57,877 nt of DNA. Origin: Bacteroidetes bacterium QS_3_64_15. GTDB lineage: Bacteria; Bacteroidota; Rhodothermia; Rhodothermales; Salinibacteraceae. Position numbers and translations under genes: made by a program. A model generated the notes under the pieces. It was not told where the DNA came from and did not search any database. It saw nothing but the letters and a program-made list of their open reading frames with translations. Location of the stretch: NCBI GenBank assembly GCA_003022565.1, contig PXTN01000118.1, forward strand, positions 1-57,877, read 5' to 3'. Positions within the stretch are counted from its first letter, which is position 1. The number at the start of each line of letters is the position of its first letter. Shown here one piece after another: positions 28,536 through 46,241 of the stretch.

Positions 28536-28979
28536 ATGACGTTCCCCGACCCCGACTCGTTCCGCGAGATCGACCACACCGGCGACATTGGAATTCAGGT
28601 GACCGCCCCGACGCTGCCCCGCCTCTTCGAGCGGGCGGCCCTCGGCACGTTTCACGTGCTCACCGACCTCGACGCGGTGCAGACGCCGGATGCGACGAGC
28701 ATCGCGGTGGACGGGCGCGACCGGGAGGCGCTCATGGTGCGGTGGCTCTCCGAACTCAACTATCGCCACACCGTCGACAACGTCCTCTACGCCTCGTTCG
28801 AGGTAGCGTCCATCGATAACGCTAACGACGGCCTCACTCTCACGGCTACCGCCCGCGGCGAGCCCATCGACCCCAATCGGCACACCGTCTACACCGAACT
28901 CAAAGCGATCACGTTTCATGGCCTCGACGTGCATAAAACGGACAACGGCTGGGCCGTGCAGGTGATTTTTGACATGTGA
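28536..28979 (+). CDS. Archease
   Basis: FREIDHTGDIGIQVTAPTLPRLFERAALGTFHVLTDL...LMVRWLSELNYRHTVDNVLYASFEV; next to rtcB. Confidence 0.9.
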   Translation: MTFPDPDSFREIDHTGDIGIQVTAPTLPRLFERAALGTFHVLTDLDAVQTPDATSIAVDGRDREALMVRWLSELNYRHTVDNVLYASFEVASIDNANDGLTLTATARGEPIDPNRHTVYTELKAITFHGLDVHKTDNGWAVQVIFDM

Positions 28980-45712: not shown

Positions 45713-45812
45713 GGTTACGGTCGTAAATCTCTCATTTCCCCGACCCCCCCTCCGTTCGACCAGGATCTCGAGCGATCTACTGAGCAAGGGGCTCGCGCAC
45801 TATATAGAAAAA

Positions 45813-45838
45813 GGGACGGATCCGTGAGGACCCGTCCC
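45813..45838. terminator. Hairpin GGGACGG...CCGTCCC (probable terminator for vapBC/rpsU convergence)
   Basis: Inverted repeat read directly between convergent genes. Confidence 0.65.
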
Positions 45839-45847
45839 TGATTGGGG

Positions 45848-45893: not shown

Positions 45894-46106
45894 CTACTTG
45901 AGCTTCCGGTTGTCGCCTCGCTTCTCTTCGCGGTGGCGGCGGCGCCGCGCCCGCTTTGCATCGAGGCGCTTCTCTTCCGAGGGCTTCATGTATGTCATGT
46001 TCTGCCGGTACTCCTGCAGCACACGACTGCGGTTGACCTGACGCCGGAAGCGCTTGAGAGCACGATCAATGTCTTCGTTGTTTCGGACTTTGACACCAAC
46101 AGACAA
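45894..46106 (-). CDS. rpsU: 30S ribosomal protein bS21, TTG start
   Basis: (M)SVGVKVRNNEDIDRALKRFRRQVNRSRVLQEYRQNMTYMKPSEEKRLDAKRARRRRHREEKRGDNRKLK; TTG at 46106 preceded by GGAGGGATCTACC. Confidence 0.92.
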   Translation of the reverse strand: MSVGVKVRNNEDIDRALKRFRRQVNRSRVLQEYRQNMTYMKPSEEKRLDAKRARRRRHREEKRGDNRKLK

Positions 46107-46129
46107 GGTAGATCCCTCCGTAGGGAGTT
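46107..46129 (-). promoter_or_regulatory. Strong Shine-Dalgarno (GGAGGG) in a potential UCCC/GGGA hairpin upstream of rpsU
   Basis: Minus strand ...AACTCCCTACGGAGGGATCTACC|TTG... Confidence 0.7.
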
Positions 46130-46241
46130 TGGTTCTGAGATACAGCGGGTTGTGATCAAAAGGGTCCCCCGGAAACGCAAGGCCGAGAGGCATGTTTCTC
46201 CCTGCGTCCTGTCTCCTTATTTTGCCTGACGGCGTTTTCCA

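Follow-up and report, generated by a model that had tools for sequence, protein, structure and literature searches.

A conserved non-AUG start codon and an extended Shine-Dalgarno sequence at rpsU of Rhodothermales: a candidate site of feedback control by bS21

The rpsU gene is carried by the minus strand of the window, i.e. the whole stretch of 57,877 nt analysed here, which comes from a 2.6-Mb assembly (G000) that is 84% complete and has no 16S gene. It extends from 45894 to 46106 and codes for ribosomal protein bS21 (70 amino acids plus the stop codon); the TIGR00030 (S21p) profile identifies the product with a score of 56 bits (cut-off 28.95), and orthologues were found in 39 of 41 relatives and in 149 of 150 genomes of the class. 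A strong intrinsic terminator, made of a 12-bp stem and a T run, lies 3' of the gene (45812–45839, minus strand) and, together with the divergent orientation of rdgB, makes rpsU a single-gene transcription unit. Upstream, on the same strand, is a GAAAC-N16-CGT motif (GAAACATGCC...CGT; 46175–46198), which recurs with a spacer of 16 or 17 nt, at -91 to -109 from rpsU, in 11 of the 12 congeneric genomes and in two other genera of the family, g3 and g7. The motif has the appearance of an ECF-sigma promoter; this putative promoter would imply a leader of roughly 60 nt. Comparison of the leader with Rfam gave no match near the gathering score and nothing convincing.

As described in the initial annotation, the minus strand reads AAACTCCCTACGGAGGGATCTACC-TTG from 46130 to 46104. 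The TTG (46104–46106, minus strand) does serve as the start codon of rpsU, at a position used across relatives, and GGAGGGATC is found eight bases ahead of it. The core of this Shine-Dalgarno (SD) sequence, GGAGG (46115–46119, minus strand), ends 8 nt before the TTG, is invariant throughout the genus and is complementary to CCUCC of 16S rRNA; the spacing and strength attributed to it beforehand were confirmed. It abuts a GATC extension (46111–46114, minus strand) able to pair with 16S GAUC (1530–1533), without a U to face A1534. Pairing through GGAGG and GAUC amounts to -15.4 kcal/mol in the window, a value calculated with the 16S tail of relatives, the G000 assembly having none, and to -18.3 kcal/mol in G010, G015 and others. 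The tail of G010, a congener, is GGATCACCTCCTAGAG, and the intact anti-SD GGATCACCTCC is present in congeners G010, G001 and G012 as well as in G031 and G038. Tails of relatives mostly end with GGATCACCTCCTA, as noted for Salinibacter ruber and Rhodothermus marinus, two species which show no SD signal at the genome level, retain the anti-SD and have the last U changed to A (PMC3155529).

Alignment of the leaders, the check proposed with the annotation, revealed that the strong SD is kept across the genus, the family and several further families, with the TTG as the conserved start. Such conservation, together with the strength of the pairing, sets the SD apart from a chance match. In the family of the window, 21 of 23 rpsU leaders pair with the 16S tail at -8 kcal/mol or below, and 18 at -13 kcal/mol or below. 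The GATC extension is kept in family f1 and recurs in f5, f7, f8 and f12. Among 82 Rhodothermales leaders, the extended SDs are of the types GGAGG-GAUY (17), GGAG-UGAU (9) and GGAGG-R-GAUC (3), and none is the perfect GGAGGUGA, which is common in Flavobacteria leaders and has further cases in the Ignavibacteria/Chlorobi group. At the step facing A1534/C1535, every extended SD thus seems to have either a missing or a mismatched base; this trait, apparently new, was noticed post hoc and is offered as a lead rather than as a demonstrated feature. Extended rpsU SDs with an inserted or altered base (GAAAGGTAGGTGA, AAAGTGGGTGA) were also seen in Ignavibacteria-like leaders (L055, L057, L063, L074, L086 and L088), many of them followed by a GTG or TTG start.

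The surroundings had been described as SD-poor, and they are. For the 54 genes called in the window and in a ribosomal-protein contig, the median pairing of the SD region was -3.6 kcal/mol, versus -5.3 and -4.4 for upstream and downstream mock regions, and the best of the 54 reached -12.8, weaker than the -15.4 of rpsU. The 640 kb of congener G010 on which the genome-wide statistics are based gave the same picture: a median of -4.0 for 420 called genes versus -4.8 (upstream mock) and -4.6 (downstream mock), the best other gene being at -16.7 (1 of 420) and rpsU at -18.3. The gene caller was blind to SDs, and the mock windows are partly coding, which somewhat inflates the mock values; applied identically to E. 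coli, the method did recover SDs (-6.2 versus -4.0 and -4.4). Hence none of the three observations named in the annotation as counting against its proposal (an SD not conserved upstream of rpsU, a start codon lying downstream, SD usage common genome-wide) was made.

A few other SDs deserve mention. The only other strong one within the window precedes an archease gene (28536–28979, plus strand) located directly before rtcB; this SD (AGGAGGTAAT, -12.8 kcal/mol) is absent from relatives and probably due to chance, and archease was not retained as a second regulated gene. The only gene among the 420 of G010 whose pairing comes near that of rpsU is an HNH-endonuclease-like one (L266, position 1658, plus strand), with GAGGAGGGATC before its ATG (-16.7 kcal/mol). 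A wider SD regulon was not apparent: GGAGGGATC-N3-5-DTG has five matches in the genome versus two for the reversed control, and the four besides rpsU are unconvincing as gene starts. The rpsR gene, a second SD gene in some Bacteroidia, has an ATG start and no SD here.

Compared with the other ribosomal protein genes of nine genomes (with our own duplex energies, a 14-nt tail and the S10-spc-alpha genes only), rpsU had the strongest SD in G000, G003, G004, G015, G031 and G035; leaving out the S17 start, which had been misplaced, brought it to first place in G010 too. In these seven genomes it was both the winner and below -13 kcal/mol, the combination used by McNutt et al. (PMC9976891). It did not rank first in G026 nor in G038, a member of a family that has mostly lost the SD.

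Automatic reading of 82 of the 84 Rhodothermales whole genomes gave TTG for 62 and GTG for 20, but ATG for none; of the two leftover leaders, read by eye, that of G125 has TTG and that of G071 most likely CTG, so that 83 of 84 start with TTG or GTG and one probably with CTG, these genomes being related and the counts hence not independent. In the genus of the window the same site carries TTG in 10 genomes and GTG in two. One ATG start, without SD, was found in L041, from a Rhodothermales genome of a separate named collection. Elsewhere, ATG starts rpsU in 19 of 20 genomes of a Balneolales-like sister order of the same class (GTG in the other one) and in all 27 Flavobacteria-type leaders, while GTG or TTG is found in 22 of 40 leaders mostly of the Ignavibacteria/Kapabacteria/Chlorobi type. 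Other ribosomal protein genes of nine Rhodothermales genomes begin with ATG in 194 cases out of 199 (97.5%), all five exceptions being rpsC; this count omits S10 and S17 (uS10, uS17), both of which the conserved-start method misplaced at internal codons. Several relatives have an in-frame TGA within the rpsU SD, which leaves TTG or GTG as the only possible start there. TTG and GTG replace each other inside f1 and inside f2, and f5 differs from the other families in the same way, ATG being almost absent, a pattern which argues for selection against AUG at rpsU in Rhodothermales. The conserved non-AUG start is apparently new, and it goes beyond the initial annotation, which had presented the TTG as a weak start added to the circuit: the non-AUG start is practically universal in the order.

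The SD is less widespread than the start codon. No strong SD was found in 35 of the 82 Rhodothermales leaders (about 43%), mostly those of f4, f13 and f15 plus part of f5, f9 and f14, and TTG or GTG is still kept there; the SD and the non-AUG start are therefore separable. The genomes sampled from f4 and f13, in which rpsU is likewise without a strong SD, carry C1533U in the 16S tail. As the tail is normal in the single f15 genome seen (G038), a link between loss of the rpsU SD and change of the 16S tail is suggestive only. In the genomes sampled from genus g33 of f13 the anti-SD core is altered as well: the tails at L293 (G125), L306 (G148) and L307 (G134) are GGATTACCTCTC or GGATTACCTCTA, with a core CCUCU instead of CCUCC, and rpsU of the same three genomes has no more than AGGTATC or AGGTACC to offer, a weak match (-7 kcal/mol) for the CCUCU tail. 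Another oddity is found in f15: around the TTG of SD-less leaders (L202–L204, L208, L210–L212, L216 and L217), AGTCAGTTGGCATTTCAT is strongly conserved, and the protein has four additional residues at its N-terminus.

Since many families retain TTG or GTG after loss of the SD, the start codon need not belong to a regulatory circuit. The SD could do nothing more than let ribosomes devoid of bS21 make bS21, with no real feedback, the TTG or GTG being a leftover or a means of setting the dose; in Flavobacterium johnsoniae, ribosomes lacking bS21 do perform worse on SD-less mRNAs (PMC9976891). The start codons themselves fit this poorly. If the codon were a neutral leftover, decay to ATG would be expected, and only one transition separates GTG from ATG, yet TTG and GTG swap in several lineages while ATG turns up just once, in the SD-less L041. 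We therefore hold this explanation to be rather unlikely.

Sequestration of the SD by a local hairpin, also put forward in the initial annotation, was not supported. The small putative hairpin, UCCCU-ACGG-AGGGA (46113–46126, minus strand; MFE -5.6 kcal/mol), can indeed be drawn over the SD both in the window and in the genomes nearest to it, and a CACUC-NNN-GAGUG stem recurs in most f5 leaders with a strong SD, where it is somewhat better than in shuffled sequences. Either could in principle mask the SD until temperature, the binding of bS21 or another signal opens it. When SD-bearing leaders were folded after shuffling of their upstream part, however, 41 to 54 shuffled leaders out of 100 folded as well as the real ones for the window and its closest relatives (G000, G003 and G004), and in many relatives with the same SD (G014, G015, G020 and G031) the hairpin has a different register or is absent. 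Neither conservation nor covariation of a stem covering the SD was thus found, and a hairpin switch is very improbable; the structure in the window is probably no functional element, and we rejected it as a part of the system.

From the above, we consider it fairly probable that bS21 feeds back on its own synthesis through the rpsU leader, in a variant of the Flavobacterium circuit. By analogy with the latter, most mRNAs of the lineage would be translated without SD-anti-SD pairing. On a 30S subunit lacking bS21, the 16S tail would be free to pair with the extended rpsU SD (GGAGG plus GAUC), in a duplex of about 9 pairs that bypasses one rRNA base, and this pairing would drive initiation at UUG, a weak start codon. 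With ample bS21, the tail would be held by this protein and its neighbours and the SD would become unreadable; UUG deprived of SD help would initiate poorly, and bS21 synthesis would drop. This reading builds on the conservation and rank of the SD, the SD poverty of the genome, the conserved non-AUG start and the SD-less rpsR; it supposes that the tail is occluded in Rhodothermia, that rpsU responds to the level of bS21 and that UUG sets the gain. We found no experimental work in the literature on such a loop in Rhodothermia.

The occlusion step is where bS21 itself differs. In F. johnsoniae, Tyr54 of bS21 stacks on A1534, and for Chlorobia, whose bS21 has no Tyr54, a modified occlusion has been suggested (PMC9976891). 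The Tyr54 hallmark of Bacteroidia, the residue that redirects the 16S tail there, was not found in Rhodothermales bS21: its place is taken by Arg55 in all 12 sequences aligned, so that the tail may be occluded differently or not at all and the mechanism, if present, would be at least modified. Without occlusion, rpsU could be served by plain SD-dependent initiation on complete ribosomes with an unoccluded anti-SD, the SD being kept because the start is weak; compensation of a weak start codon by a strong SD is common. But SD-region pairing is weaker than in mock windows genome-wide, as described for SD-blind Bacteroidota, and the one gene singled out encodes bS21, as in Bacteroidia and Chlorobia, which makes ordinary initiation of this kind quite unlikely. 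Within the feedback loop that we favour, the obligatory non-AUG start might be a second element which, with the imperfect SD opposite A1534/C1535, would make translation of rpsU depend almost entirely on free-tail ribosomes; we put this forward as a tentative refinement that may well prove wrong.

Only a few cases of specialised ribosomes in bacteria are well supported, and ribosomes deficient in bS21 are one of them. That a class other than those tested so far shows the same leader signature, with a different bS21 tail, suggests an early origin of the loop in Bacteroidota or more than one origin, and that Tyr54 is dispensable for it. The near-total avoidance of AUG at rpsU leads to a testable prediction on the contribution of the weak start, and the natural SD losses found alongside changes of the 16S tail provide a comparative test.

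The closest known system is that of F. johnsoniae, where ribosomes without bS21 gain initiation on the extended rpsU SD (McNutt et al. 2023, PMC9976891). The same loop was predicted for most Flavobacteriales and Sphingobacteriales, about half of the Chitinophagales, some Cytophagales and all Chlorobia; Rhodothermia go unmentioned in the text of that paper and of related ones, though supplementary tables may include some, and among the papers searched none named Rhodothermota together with the Shine-Dalgarno sequence. The comparison with Flavobacterium drawn in the annotation is apt because the same rpsU signature is found in Bacteroidia and Chlorobia. As in F. johnsoniae, the genome is SD-poor with an intact anti-SD, and the extended rpsU SD outranks the other ribosomal protein genes, its duplex with the tail being below -13 kcal/mol for the genome of the window and for most of its family. 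Several points differ, however: the start is TTG or GTG here and ATG there, the SD has an imperfection opposite A1534/C1535, and Tyr54 is missing. The lack of Tyr54 and the sizeable fraction of SD-less leaders given above also speak against a uniform circuit.

Two E. coli genes offer other parallels. The UUG start of rpsT (bS20), conserved in some families, was proposed to serve autoregulation, and autogenous control by bS20 has been neither confirmed nor refuted according to a review (PMC10931766). Like rpsU here, rpsT is a single-gene ribosomal protein unit with a weak UUG start; it differs in the protein encoded, and an extended SD has not been described for it. The infC gene starts with AUU, and its product, IF3, discriminates the start codon directly. 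As in infC, a component of initiation would have its synthesis tied, through a rare start codon, to the state of the initiation machinery; unlike in infC, the sensor proposed here is not IF3 but the 16S tail.
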